The position numbers and the translations under genes are program-made. Below the pieces are notes generated by a model. That model searched no databases. It was given only the letters and a program-made list of their open reading frames with translations, and was not told where the DNA came from. Below, in pieces: positions 2,847-35,237 of a stretch of 43,701 nt of DNA. How positions within the stretch are numbered: position 1 is the stretch's first letter; each line of letters opens with the position of its first letter. The stretch is taken from contig WRDH01000024.1 in NCBI GenBank assembly GCA_009783555.1, positions 1 through 43,701 of the forward strand, written 5' to 3'. This stretch comes from Oscillospiraceae bacterium (lineage in GTDB: Bacteria; Bacillota; Clostridia; Oscillospirales; Oscillospiraceae).

Positions 2847-3977
2847 CTAGCGTTTTGGCATTCTTTCCATTTCTTCCCGGACTTCCAACATACGTATACG
2901 CTCATCATATTTATTTTGGTAAAACTCAAATAAAGCATTAATAATAAAAACTTTTTGTTCTACCCTTACACTGAGCCGGTTCGACATGCATGTTTCCGTT
3001 GTATAGGCCGGGATATTATATCTCAGTGTATATTCCCGTGTAGTTGTGCCGCGAACAAGCTTACTTCTCGCAGGCCCGAAACTTCTTCCGCCATATGATC
3101 CCAGGTGCCTGCCAACGAGGTCGGTTTGATTTATTGTATCTGAAACATATCTTATGGCTTCCAGCATCTCCTCAGTAGTTTCATGACCCGGCCAAAACAA
3201 AATCTTATTGGAAAAACCATCTTGATAAGCTTCGTGCATGTCGATAATTACACAGGGTTTGAAGTCGTCGAGCAATTCCGTAATAACTGCTGCGACTCTT
3301 TGTGCAGCGGTACCGTTACTGTCACCGGGGAACTGGCGATTCAAATTTTGCCCACCCGGACCCCAGCTATCAGGCGAAGTGGCGGTGGCTTTTGGAATAA
3401 TCAGGAAGCTTCCGCTTGTAAAATAAAAGTTATCGACAAGATATTGCGCCGCCTCCTGCCCTGCCCGTTCACGCCCGTGGACACCACCGATAACAGCAAT
3501 ACTCGGTCCGGATATGCCGGTGTTAAATATGTGATAGGTTACAGCATACTTTTCAAAACCTTCCGGCACAATTGAGGATGTTTCATGTATTAATACCGAT
3601 ACCGGCTCTACCGTAATATCTAAGACCACCTCTTCCTCACTCATATCGCCTTCAATGATGCCATTTTCCGGAATGTACATATTATCCTCATCGACATCGC
3701 TTTGAGATTGACTTAACATGATATTGTTATCAACAACACCAAAGTCGTTATGAAATTTCGTTTCACTTGCATCTTTACTCTCCGCATTTGGATATGCAGT
3801 TGTTGAATTACTTGCAGCAAGAGACAATACTAGTGTTGCTGCTAATATATTGATGATAAAATACTTAGTCATATATTTTTCTTTTACCAGCACTAAGTTA
3901 TCTCTCAACGGTTTTCTTATGTCATTTAATATCTTGCTTATGATTTGACTCATCTCAAGTTTTAACACTAATCTCAT
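2847..3977 (-). CDS. Secreted M14-like zinc peptidase / aspartoacylase-fold protein
   Basis: About 376 aa. A hydrophobic segment (FIINILAATLVLSLAAS) reads as a signal sequence, then a spacer, then a catalytic region. Metal-binding hallmarks of the M14/AstE-AspA fold are visible: HGRE in GGVHGRERAG, a second His in IDMHEAYQDG and a late acidic residue in AYTTETCMS. GGQNLNRQFPGD matches the substrate-pocket Asn-Arg region. It probably removes or trims peptides at the cell surface; the substrate is unknown. Start uncertain: ATG 3977 has GGAGAG upstream; ATG 3872 would give a more conventional signal peptide but a weak ribosome binding site; a GTG lies at 3995. A good promoter lies upstream. Confidence 0.75.
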   Translation of the reverse strand: MRLVLKLEMSQIISKILNDIRKPLRDNLVLVKEKYMTKYFIINILAATLVLSLAASNSTTAYPNAESKDASETKFHNDFGVVDNNIMLSQSQSDVDEDNMYIPENGIIEGDMSEEEVVLDITVEPVSVLIHETSSIVPEGFEKYAVTYHIFNTGISGPSIAVIGGVHGRERAGQEAAQYLVDNFYFTSGSFLIIPKATATSPDSWGPGGQNLNRQFPGDSNGTAAQRVAAVITELLDDFKPCVIIDMHEAYQDGFSNKILFWPGHETTEEMLEAIRYVSDTINQTDLVGRHLGSYGGRSFGPARSKLVRGTTTREYTLRYNIPAYTTETCMSNRLSVRVEQKVFIINALFEFYQNKYDERIRMLEVREEMERMPKR

Positions 3978-32013: not shown

Positions 32014-32022
32014 GCTTATGCG

Positions 32023-32161
32023 AACTATTCAGAGGGTATCCATAAAACTTTTAATAGTTCCAGCCAATGCACTAGCACTATAGTGGAAACTTGTATTGAT
32101 CGGCAAAACTTGTGTGCTGACTGAAACTATTAAAAGTTTTCCGGACACCCTCTGAACAGTT
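32023..32161 (-). repeat. Family F1 palindromic element, copy 2
   Basis: A 139-bp element whose reverse complement matches 347-486 over most of its interior (shared blocks such as TTTCAGTCAGCACACAAG and TGCATTGGCTGGAACTATT). Its outer arms differ from copy 1 (CAGAGGGT in place of CTTGGCGGGT) but still pair with each other. A hairpin CACTATAGTG in the apical part corresponds to CGCTAAGGTG in copy 1. Most non-Watson-Crick positions become G:U when read on the minus strand. It lies between two rightward genes. Confidence 0.85.
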
Positions 32162-32201
32162 AACATAGAATGTCAAATTAGTTATTGAAAGGTGTATTCG
32201 T

Positions 32202-33221
32202 GTGTCGGAGTTGAAGATATCCCTGCCCGGTCCTGAGATAATTACCATAGCCGGGCAGACAATTGATAAGCTTGTACGTGCAGGTGACGGTGACGCTGCG
32301 CTGCTGTATTTGTATATACTCAGGACGCATGAGCAAAAGGAATTGTCAGAGTCGGAGATTGCGATTGCGCTTGATAAAAGCAAAGGCTGGGTAGCTTCTG
32401 CCATGGCGGTGCTGTCACGGCTCAGGCTGATTAATCTTGATAATATCAACGGTGCAAAGACCGGAAATGCCGCTTCCGACTCTGAGAGCGGTATTGACTC
32501 CCTGCCTCCATATAAAGAACCACGTCCACATACGGAAGATGAAGTTAAGCAAGTCCTTCAATCGGGATCTGATTTTTCTGTAGTCATTGAAGAAACACAG
32601 CGCAGGCTCGGAAAGCAATTGTCGCCTGACGAACTTCTGCGGCTATACGGGATTTATGACAATTTACGCTTGCCACCCGAAGTTATACTTCTGCTCATCA
32701 CGCATTGTATACGTGAGAGCCGCATTACCGGAGACGGTCGCGCACCAAATGTAAAGTATATTGAAAAAGCCGCATACACATGGGAGCGCGAGGGGATTTT
32801 CAGCCTTGAAAGAGCAGAGGAATACTTAAAAGCTCTGGAATCGAAGAAAAGCGTCCGCGGTGAAATGAAAAGAGTCCTATGCATTTGGGACAGAGAATTT
32901 TCAGCGACACAAAAACGTTATGTTGACGATTGGATTGAAATGGGTATGGAACCCGATGCTATTGCAATTGCGTATGACAAAACAATGGTAAAAACAGGCA
33001 GCCTTGCATGGCCGTATATTGATAAAATCGTTAGAAACTGGCACATAAAAGGACTCCTAACAGCACAGCAGGTACAAGATAGTGAAGGCGGTTCCGGGAA
33101 TGCGGGTCAATCTCAAGGTAACTTTCGAGGTGCATCACAAGGAAAACAAAAACACGGAGAACCAAACCGCGCGGACATAGAAAGAATGCAACGTCTTTTG
33201 GATAAGACTAAGAATAATTAG
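32202..33221 (+). CDS. DnaD-domain replication initiation protein
   Basis: A 339-aa protein. The N-terminal winged helix (about 15-80, LYLYILRTHEQKELSE, IALDKSKGWVASAMAVLSRL) resembles DnaD. Two DnaB_2/DnaD C-terminal-like helical domains follow (about 130-215 and 225-285, the second with YVDDWIEMGMEP and AWPYIDKIVRNWH). A disordered Gln/Gly/Ser tail ends the chain. In Bacillus DnaD and DnaB open the origin and recruit the helicase loader; the loader-like gene comes next. GTG start with GAAAGGTG upstream. The 3' end is 22 bp from repeat F2 copy A. Confidence 0.88.
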   Translation: MSELKISLPGPEIITIAGQTIDKLVRAGDGDAALLYLYILRTHEQKELSESEIAIALDKSKGWVASAMAVLSRLRLINLDNINGAKTGNAASDSESGIDSLPPYKEPRPHTEDEVKQVLQSGSDFSVVIEETQRRLGKQLSPDELLRLYGIYDNLRLPPEVILLLITHCIRESRITGDGRAPNVKYIEKAAYTWEREGIFSLERAEEYLKALESKKSVRGEMKRVLCIWDREFSATQKRYVDDWIEMGMEPDAIAIAYDKTMVKTGSLAWPYIDKIVRNWHIKGLLTAQQVQDSEGGSGNAGQSQGNFRGASQGKQKHGEPNRADIERMQRLLDKTKNN

Positions 33222-33243
33222 CAGAAATTTGTACACGCTTGAA

Positions 33244-33373
33244 CAGTTGGAATTGGAGTTAGTATTTTCAATTCCGTAAAGCGTAGGCATGGACGGTGGA
33301 GCGTCCGTCAGTAGAGTACAGGACGTACTCTCTGTCGGTAGGAATTGCAAAATGCTAACTCCAATTCCAACTG
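33244..33373 (+). repeat. Family F2 palindromic element, copy A
   Basis: A 130-bp element beginning CAGTTGGAATTGGAG and ending CTCCAATTCCAACTG. Inside the outer stem are smaller hairpins GGACG-N6-CGTCC and AGAGTAC-N5-GTACTCT. The reverse complement of 34408-34537 matches it over nearly its whole length. It sits between the DnaD and DnaC-like genes, 34 bp before the latter. Confidence 0.88.
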
Positions 33374-33407
33374 CCGATAACCATACAAGAAAGGGCAAAA
33401 CACTAAA

Positions 33408-34397
33408 ATGGCATTGGATGGCAAGATACTGGCAAGAGCAAAGGCTACGCTCGAAAAACGGCGTAGAGAGAAAGAGGAACAGTTTGAAACACGTTTGCAA
33501 GGTGTTTACGTAAAGTTTCCGGCTGTGCGATTAATTGATGCCGAGCTTAGAGCGACAATGGCGGAGCTTGTTGGTGTTGCTGTGGGGACCGGAGCATCAT
33601 CGCTAATTGATGATATCCGCAGTAGAAATCAGAAGCTGCAAGAAGAGCGTCGGGGTATAATAAACTGTGCCGGATTTCCGGAAGGTTATCTCGACAACGA
33701 ATATATATGCGAAAAATGCCATGACACAGGATTTAAGGATGCCAAAATGTGCGAATGTCTTGCGGCTATCTACAAGCAAGAGCAAAGTGCGTCGCTCAGT
33801 AACCTGTTCAAGCTCGGTAATGAAACCTTTGAGACCTTTAATCTTTCATTTTACAGCGATACACCGGCTTCGGACACAGGTATTTCACCAAGGCAAAGCA
33901 TGAAAGTTATTTATGAAATTTGTGTAGAATATGCACGGAGTTTCGGAAGTAATTCCATGAACATATTCTTTAACGGTGCGCCGGGACTTGGAAAAACATT
34001 TTTATCGGCATGTATTGCAAGAGTTGTTGCTGATAACGGATTTTCTGTCGTTTATGACATGGCATCTTCCGTATTCGCGAAATTTGAAGACGCAAAATTC
34101 CAACGCACCGATGATTTAGAACGGTTACGTAACGAAACAAACAGATATCTTGAATGCGATTTATTGATAATTGACGATTTAGGCACAGAGATGATTACAG
34201 CATTTACGATTTCAACGCTTTATGAAATAGTAAACACACGTCTTGTCACAGGACGGAAAACCATAATAAACTCGAATTTGACACTGATGGAACTAAACAA
34301 AAAATACTCCGAACAGATAATGTCCAGACTGGAAGGCGAGTATCAGGTACTGACGTTCTATGGTGATGATATAAGAAAGAAGAGGAATAGTATATAG
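33408..34397 (+). CDS. DnaC/DnaI-like helicase loader ATPase
   Basis: A 329-aa AAA+ protein. The N-terminal helicase-binding part carries a probable zinc site, C101, C104, C115 and C117 (ICEKCHDTG, MCEC). The ATPase domain has Walker A GAPGLGKTF at 190-198 and Walker B LLIIDDLGTE. A C-terminal arginine-finger region contains SRLEGEYQVL. It is expected to load the replicative helicase DnaB/DnaC onto DNA. The ribosome binding site is weak (AAAGGG, 12 bp away). The gene is bracketed by two inverted copies of repeat F2, 34 bp before it and 10 bp after it. Confidence 0.9.
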   Translation: MALDGKILARAKATLEKRRREKEEQFETRLQGVYVKFPAVRLIDAELRATMAELVGVAVGTGASSLIDDIRSRNQKLQEERRGIINCAGFPEGYLDNEYICEKCHDTGFKDAKMCECLAAIYKQEQSASLSNLFKLGNETFETFNLSFYSDTPASDTGISPRQSMKVIYEICVEYARSFGSNSMNIFFNGAPGLGKTFLSACIARVVADNGFSVVYDMASSVFAKFEDAKFQRTDDLERLRNETNRYLECDLLIIDDLGTEMITAFTISTLYEIVNTRLVTGRKTIINSNLTLMELNKKYSEQIMSRLEGEYQVLTFYGDDIRKKRNSI

Positions 34398-34407
34398 AAT
34401 TGGAACG

Positions 34408-34537
34408 CAATGGGAATTGGAGTTATAATTTTACAATTCCTACCGCCAAAGAGTGCATCGTGTAATCTATTGTCGGACGTTCCACCGTCCATGGCTACAC
34501 TTGACGGAATTGAAAATTATAACTCCAATTCCCGTTG
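34408..34537 (-). repeat. Family F2 palindromic element, copy B
   Basis: A 130-bp element, identical in length to copy A and inverted relative to it. The inner stem differs as a paired change (TATAATTTT with AAAATTATA, against TAGTATTTT with AAAATGCTA in copy A). The GGACG-N6-CGTCC hairpin is kept, including the GGTGGA loop apart from one base. It begins 10 bp after the loader gene stop. Confidence 0.88.
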
Positions 34538-34598
34538 TTCAAGTTTTCCACTAACCTCAAATACAAGAGAATTTTTATAGTAGAAAGGAAAAAAGTAA

Positions 34599-35237
34599 AT
34601 GCTGATAAAAACATTACCTGTCGGGATGTTGGAGACTAATTGTTATGTTGTTACTGATGAAGAAACGCACAAATGTGCGATTATTGATCCGGGAGCTGAT
34701 TCAAATACGATACTTGACTATATCGAGTCCAACAAATTAAATACAGTTGCTGTATTTTTAACACACGGGCATTATGACCATCACATGGCTCTTGATGCGG
34801 TTGAGGAATCGACAGGTGCACCTGTTTATGTGCACGAGGGCGAAGTTAACCGCAACGGTCAAAATGGGAGACATAAACTCGAAGACACTGAAAAACTTAG
34901 GTTTTATTCTGAAGGAGACGTAATCAATGTCGGAAGTCTTGAGTTTAAGGTTATGGAAACGCCGGGGCATTCGACCGGGTCGGTCACGCTCATGTGCCAA
35001 GATGCACTCTTCACCGGAGATACACTTTTTAGAGGCGACTGCGGAAGAACAGACCTCGAAGGCGGCAGTGACGAAATAATGATGAAATCCTTAAAACGCC
35101 TGTTTGAGCTAGACGGCGACTATGAGGTCTACCCCGGACACGCACAATCTTCGACTTTAAGTTATGAGAGAAGCTTTAACAGGTATATGAAGTATGCCGT
35201 AAATAATATGATAAATGAAATGAAAAATGACAATTAA
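34599..35237 (+). CDS. MBL-fold metallohydrolase (glyoxalase II-like, YqgX type)
   Basis: A 212-aa cytosolic hydrolase. The metal motif THGHYDHH (H56, H58, D60, H61) is followed by a further His in ETPGHSTGS, an Asp in FTGDTLF and His in VYPGHAQSS, a complete dinuclear site. YqgX-like proteins are often annotated hydroxyacylglutathione hydrolases, but the true substrate in Clostridia is not known. It overlaps hemZ by 11 bp. GAAAGG precedes the start. Confidence 0.9.
   Translation: MLIKTLPVGMLETNCYVVTDEETHKCAIIDPGADSNTILDYIESNKLNTVAVFLTHGHYDHHMALDAVEESTGAPVYVHEGEVNRNGQNGRHKLEDTEKLRFYSEGDVINVGSLEFKVMETPGHSTGSVTLMCQDALFTGDTLFRGDCGRTDLEGGSDEIMMKSLKRLFELDGDYEVYPGHAQSSTLSYERSFNRYMKYAVNNMINEMKNDN

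Follow-up and report, generated by a model that had tools for sequence, protein, structure and literature searches.

A dispersed structured RNA element, a putative CsrA ligand, inserted on both sides of a dnaC-like gene in an Oscillospiraceae bacterium

Introduction

The contig WRDH01000024.1 of the Oscillospiraceae bacterium assembly GCA_009783555.1, whose 43,701 nucleotides are referred to here as the window, carries a DnaC/IstB-like helicase loader gene (33408-34397, + strand; PF01695, 4.9e-14; matches in 55 of 60 genomes) that is bracketed by two inverted copies of a structured element. The original prediction for this locus left two readings side by side, namely that the copies are regulatory elements flanking the gene, or that they form with it a composite or invertible cassette. 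The locus raises the question of what this element is, and whether its two copies act together on the gene between them.

Results

Two copies of one palindromic element

The inverted repeat extends over 33238-33374 and 34407-34543, with arms of 137 nt that are 84% complementary and separated by 1032 nt. The 130-bp stretch at 33244-33373 and that at 34408-34537, read on the opposite strand, have the same length and align, as originally predicted; they are copies of a single palindromic element and enclose exactly one gene, with gaps of 34 bp before and 10 bp after it. Copy 2 was recovered by a DNA query with copy 1 at E=1.3e-34, both copies fold with z-scores of -8.5 to -11.8 against shuffles on both strands, and the similarity and the folding z-scores of the pair lie far from chance. 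With R1, a covariance model built from 40 copies, copy 1 (33244-33373, core on the + strand) scores 117.2 bits and copy 2 (34408-34537, core on the - strand) 114.3 bits. Copy 1 is located downstream of a DnaD-like gene (DnaB_2; 32202-33221, + strand; PF07261, 2.7e-28) and is sense to dnaD and dnaC; copy 2 is located upstream of a metallo-beta-lactamase-fold gene (34599-35237, + strand; PF00753, 2.6e-26) and is antisense to dnaC and to this gene, so that GGA loops would enter the dnaD-dnaC mRNA from copy 1 only.

Copy 1 is composed of a left arm (P1, 33244-33275), a core (33276-33340) and a right arm (P1', 33341-33373), the arms forming a P1 stem of 32 bp. Its first hairpin carries the C-G closed hexaloop AUGGAC (33289-33294, + strand; columns 26-31 of alignment A3, described below), which is of the ANGGAN type, and its second hairpin carries the loop AGGAC (33320-33324, + strand), which retains the GGA and is one loop base short of most relatives. 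In copy 2 the same alignment places an identical, C-G closed AUGGAC hexaloop at 34487-34492 (- strand), and the loop of hairpin 2 reads ACGAU (34457-34461, - strand) and has lost the GGA.

The window also contains a second dispersed palindromic family (32017-32167, approximately 150 bp, with 59-nt arms and the ends CAGAGGGTATCC and GGACACCCTCTG), which matches strongly at 37 places of the own genome, among them 359-474 of the window, and whose matches extend over the arms, as in an ordinary MITE.

The copies around dnaC are independent insertions

The two window copies share 83% identity, versus 92% with copies located elsewhere, and among the own-genome copies listed the window partner ranks only 13th and 12th of 29 as mutual relative. 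Reading of the dnaC locus covered 16 of the 18 relatives in the genus; the other two, G012 and G015, gave no dnaC match and a partial one, respectively. In all 16 a DnaD-like open frame, identified by eye, lies 5' of dnaC in the same direction, and no element is present; the distance from the end of this frame to dnaC ranges from -4 to 113 nt, versus 186 nt in the window, and the lone stray element match at these loci (L068) scores 11.7 bits (E 0.2). A metallo-beta-lactamase-type gene is next after dnaC in eight of the 16 (by eye). Since the copies are not sisters and the element is absent from the dnaC loci of relatives, one small non-coding element has been inserted here twice, independently.

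A composite or invertible cassette, in which the inverted copies would move or flip the dnaC gene, would account for the bracketing of exactly one gene, and neighbouring own-genome copies do lie nearer to each other than expected by chance (three pairs less than 1.3 kb apart versus 0.5 expected, p=0.011; 34 own copies, among the matches listed). However, neither sister copies nor a moving or flipping gene was found, the order and strand of dnaD and dnaC being constant in the 16 relatives; copies occur singly at many other sites, and four of the six own pairs less than 3 kb apart (among the matches listed) are in direct orientation. The cassette was rejected on these grounds and appears to us very improbable, and conserved paired hairpins around a gene need not signal such a structure. 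What stands of the original prediction is a structured, probably regulatory family that is dispersed over the genome, and the circumstance that was to speak against it, elements fixed in relatives and a family absent elsewhere, proved wrong on both counts.

Dispersal within a single genus

Genome-wide search for the element, proposed along with the original prediction, returned many more copies in the own genome (G000; 79 contigs, 2.75 Mb), with 42 DNA matches to copy 1, including split and arm-to-arm ones. A core-motif scan, which missed some own copies (e.g. L005), found 45, of which 40 were kept after the truncated L022, L026, L027, L036 and L037 had been dropped. Members recognised by R1 occur in ten of the 60 genomes searched, the own genome included, all of a single genus, which judging by the isolate names of relatives we take to come from the termite gut. 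Removal of one artefact on the minus strand, of five copies that were truncated or interrupted, and of identical cores left 123 copies, and 13 place-repeating or near-identical ones were further dropped for alignment A3 (110 of the 123 copies, 98 columns, including 31 of the 48 in the own genome), while a second covariance model, R2, was built from 110 copies. With R2, 48 matches were obtained for the own genome and a total of 363 for ten of the 19 same-genus genomes (E up to 1e-4 with rough E-values, weaker matches being counted uninspected, as for R1): 89 in G013, 58 in G014, 43 in G009, 38 in G002, 35 in G008, 28 in G012, 13 in G003, 10 in G007 and one in G001, besides those of the own genome. 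Among 300 genomes drawn from the family, four carry the element, all of this genus, and the 105 other genera in this set gave no R2 match under stricter filters (E up to 1e-6, with scoring of 14 candidates in each genome). A DNA pattern search through 84,980 species, each represented by a single genome and with own-genome records perhaps left out, returned six stretches in three Oscillospiraceae MAGs.

Element junctions differ between related species. One copy of G009 is missing in G008, where the 22 nt remaining could be a deletion remnant. No excess of target-site duplications of 3-9 nt over permuted flanks was found among 28 own copies. The 123 places were sorted by orientation with a simple open-frame gene caller, and 73 have co-directional neighbours, with 50 sense versus 23 antisense copies over all genomes and the opposite tendency in G003 (1 to 7). 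Sense orientation prevails in the own genome, with 22 of the 26 copies that have co-directional genes on both sides (p=0.0005). Copies are near to both neighbours, own sense copies lying at a median of 38 nt after the preceding stop and 39 nt before the following start as measured from the modelled core ends. The orientation bias could follow the direction of replication rather than that of transcription.

Two further possibilities were considered and rejected. For a phage-borne element, only L092 of five viral-contig stretches passed the core-motif scan, and this one is probably host flank since it lies beside an RtcB-like gene (by eye) at a contig end; for a longer autonomous version with an ORF, the low-scoring copies at contig ends resemble, by eye, the short element itself. 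The right-half copies L022, L026 and L037 have a different left part, and their adjoining genes look ordinary by eye.

Several copies show individual rearrangements. Three copies in the same orientation on contig C21 of the own genome (at 3062, 5767 and 8473) are spaced by 2705 and 2706 bp, perhaps as parts of a tandem gene unit carrying the element. Locus L152 of G003 (802-1039) holds two identical tandem copies, one without its own outer left arm; at L002 (1501-1620) the core runs opposite to the outer CTTGAA flank; at L083 (4170-4349) a further short insertion interrupts a copy; and at L155 of G009 (790-956) and L157 of G008 (721-887) another small palindromic repeat is inserted in the core beside hairpin 1.

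A covarying fold on the core strand

The structure that we propose for the core consists of a first hairpin with the closing helix P2a (AGCG/AGCG) and the stem P2b carrying the hexaloop, and of a second hairpin, P3, all enclosed by the outer stem P1 (median 32 bp, range 19-47). Over the 110 copies of A3, 91.4% of the paired cells can pair versus 69.9% in shuffled alignments, cells changed on both sides number 476 versus 178, and the covariation score is 0.552 versus 0.187 when shuffled and at most 0.120 when slid. Two of the five measures are weak, namely the number of pairs with double-sided changes (14 of 18 versus 11.9 shuffled, with 11 of 500 shuffles reaching 14) and further pair types in A3, which show no excess (39 versus 40.1 shuffled). 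The paired changes between the inner stems of the window copies, pointed out in the original prediction, are genuine and are usual across the whole family. In the outer part of P1, the pairing fraction is 0.81-0.95 within a copy versus 0.39-0.44 between copies of the same genome (29, 15 and 11 copies of G000, G002 and G003, respectively).

G.U pairs outnumber C.A mismatches 60 to 7 in the core helices and 132 to 9 in P1; per copy, 78 have more G.U, four have more C.A and 28 are tied. The folded RNA of the core strand is therefore the probable seat of function, though the cells are interdependent and a bias towards C-to-T changes on this strand could add to the G.U excess. Besides the two loops, the AGCG/AGCG and GUMA segments are conserved.

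The GGACG-N6-CGTCC hairpin noted in the original prediction is present in both window copies, but it is a feature of this lineage and was rejected as the conserved fold: its five pairs are possible in 25 of the 31 own and five of the 79 other copies, and no pair is changed on both sides. In the own genome this rival hairpin is the more stable one, with the conserved fold, when forced, costing a median of +3.7 kcal/mol in own copies and 0.5 elsewhere. Hairpin 1 appears in the minimum-energy fold of 6/31 own versus 46/79 other copies, and loop 1 leaves its GGA unpaired in that of 16/31 and 57/79, respectively.

Loops of the CsrA-binding type

The loop of hairpin 1 has the form A-N-G-G-A-N, with its A, G, G and A in 110 of 110 copies and a closing C-G pair in 109. 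The first N is T in 70 copies, C in 25 and A in 15, and is never G; the last is C in 72, T in 35, A in two and G in one. Hairpin 2 is more variable: its A is kept in 110/110 copies and its GGA in 96/110 (75/79 other and 21/31 own copies), and the full hexaloop is found in three of the 31 own copies. The distance between the two GGA is 26-30 nt in the 95 copies parsed, using a hairpin-2 parser that mis-called some loops, while the loop counts were taken from A3. Paired GGA sites in ANGGAN hairpin loops, as expected of a CsrA-binding RNA, are thus a property of the family, which in the window is fully displayed by loop 1 only. According to a review (PMC7652899), the SELEX consensus of CsrA is RUACARGGAUGU, mostly placed in six-nucleotide hairpin loops, and structures of RsmE contain an ANGGAN hexaloop. 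The consensus has A or G at the N position, whereas the N of loop 1 is never G.

The host encodes a CsrA (PF02599, G000:C16:7352-7507), whose gene directly follows fliW beside genes that are flagellar by eye. It carries L4 and R44 (numbering read by eye), two residues highlighted in a figure legend of the same review (PMC7652899). CsrA was found in eight of the ten element-bearing genomes; of the exceptions, FliF of G014 starts at the edge of its contig, beyond which CsrA would be expected, and G012 is 64% complete. Five of the nine element-free genomes also have CsrA, and G004 and G011 (98% and 96% complete) have no CsrA, FliW, FliF or elements. A flagellin leader of G009 contains the hairpin GGGGU[AAGGAC]ACCCC (loop in brackets, U-A closed), and one of G018 contains CAAGGAUG twice; these two leaders, recognised by motif in the loci read, place the A-GGA motif type at a classical CsrA target in this genus.

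Probable kinship with TwoAYGGAY RNAs

TwoAYGGAY (RF01731) belongs to clan CL00106, which also holds the Csr/Rsm RNAs, and resembles our element in its poorly conserved outer stem around two hairpins. For its two AYGGAY loops the comparison is mixed, with AUGGAC in hairpin 1 of both window copies but AGGAC and ACGAU in hairpin 2. Locus L170 of G002 matches it over its full length with 48.2 bits, above the gathering cut-off of 43. Of 54 loci scanned (E up to 5 or up to 1, by batch), 15 match RF01731, with 14 full-length matches staying below the cut-off (L173 with 42.5 bits and 13 with 28.6-39.5 bits). The window copies gave no match at E up to 10 and do not reach the 43-bit membership threshold, and the own loci L003, L149 and L150, included in the scan, gave no match either. 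The element differs in that its hairpin 1 is short and stands on the AGCG/AGCG closing motif, in that loop 2 is degenerate in the own genome, and probably in its dispersal as a repeat, with 1-89 matches in each genome that bears it.

TwoAYGGAY has been listed for the human gut, gamma-Proteobacteria and Clostridiales as probably an RNA and probably not cis-regulatory (PMC2864571). Two matches to the CsrA-binding motif were noted in it when CsrA-binding sRNAs were proposed for Clostridia, where they were unvalidated, and validation of the link was called work in progress (PMC4333381); the literature searched contained no test of it. The same source describes the sponge RNAs CsrB, CsrC and RsmXYZ as sRNAs known in 2014 only from Gammaproteobacteria (PMC4333381). 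These resemble the element in presenting paired GGA-loop hairpins to CsrA or RsmA, and differ from it in that the element consists of many short copies with two sites each, mostly between genes.

Discussion

Copy number, the covarying fold, the A-GGA loops, the sense bias of the own copies, the FliW and CsrA genes, the motif in two flagellin leaders and the passing of the Rfam threshold by L170 together suggest that the element is probably a divergent TwoAYGGAY-type RNA that has spread in a MITE-like manner through one genus of the Oscillospiraceae, with a CsrA dimer as its most likely ligand. Points against this reading are that copy 2 is antisense to its neighbours and orientation is mixed elsewhere, that loop 2 is degenerate and the GGACG/CGUCC hairpin more stable in the own genome, that the window copies lack an RF01731 match, and that CsrA occurs in element-free genomes as well.

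Bacterial MITEs and intergenic repeats such as ERIC, RUP, BOX and Correia are palindromic, non-coding, intergenic and multicopy sequences of about 100-150 bp, and our element resembles them in all these respects. It could be no more than an ordinary MITE, the remnant of a transposon, mobilised in trans by a DNA transposase that acts on its inverted repeats, with the fold a by-product of the palindrome and without a role as RNA; near-identical subfamily copies in different flanks (by eye) would fit such an origin, as would the short non-coding sequence, the inverted ends and the many dispersed, mostly intergenic copies. We nevertheless consider it unlikely, since conservation resides in the core and not at the ends, the arms differ wholesale between copies yet stay paired within each copy, target-site duplications of 3-9 nt were not detected in 28 own copies, and a strand-symmetric DNA palindrome does not predict the excess of G.U over C.A, of which strand-biased C-to-T mutation could mimic a part. 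A structured RNA bound by a partner other than CsrA, e.g. a mobilising protein or ribonucleoprotein, would explain why AGCG/AGCG and GUMA are conserved besides the loops, and would suit the existence of antisense copies. It seems less probable still, as both hairpins keep A-GGA with free N positions, which is the rule for CsrA and RsmE, and as the Y1 transposase, the sole mobiliser family searched, was not found in the element-rich genomes G002, G007, G008, G009 and G013 (two of them 73% and 76% complete), while the Y1 gene of the own genome lies next to a repeat of another kind. A Y1/RAYT mobiliser was rejected for these reasons, although REP/RAYT systems likewise consist of dispersed hairpins. 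At locus L204, a Y1 (RAYT-like) gene (1242-2003, - strand) is found approximately 1.5 kb from REP-like repeats with GGGGGACGGTTC (3479-3666).

If the element is indeed a TwoAYGGAY-type ligand of CsrA, it would be a small non-coding sequence multiplied MITE-like through intergenic regions, whose information would reside in the RNA of the core strand, with its long P1, a hairpin closed by AGCG/AGCG whose short, covarying stem bears an ANGGAN hexaloop, and a variable second hairpin that ends in a like loop. A copy lying in sense within an operon, as copy 1 does between dnaD and dnaC, would become part of the mRNA, where CsrA would clamp both loops and, tethered upstream of the next ribosome-binding site, would change translation or stability; many copies may jointly titrate CsrA. 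In the own lineage, where loop 2 is decaying and a hairpin competes for the GGA of loop 1, binding may be weaker, or switchable.

These RNAs offer a relative of TwoAYGGAY that reaches dozens of natural copies in some genomes, covaries strongly and shows graded decay of its loops, in hosts that encode CsrA, and such a natural multicopy series makes the question of CsrA binding directly testable. As a more tentative proposal, which goes beyond ligand assignment, the mobile RNA element may spread CsrA dimer-binding domains and so recruit operons, that of dnaC included, to the FliW-CsrA flagellar circuit, or else titrate CsrA. If this is true, a post-transcriptional regulon would have been enlarged by insertion, with up to 89 matches in one genome, which would suggest that a small mobile RNA can build a regulon.
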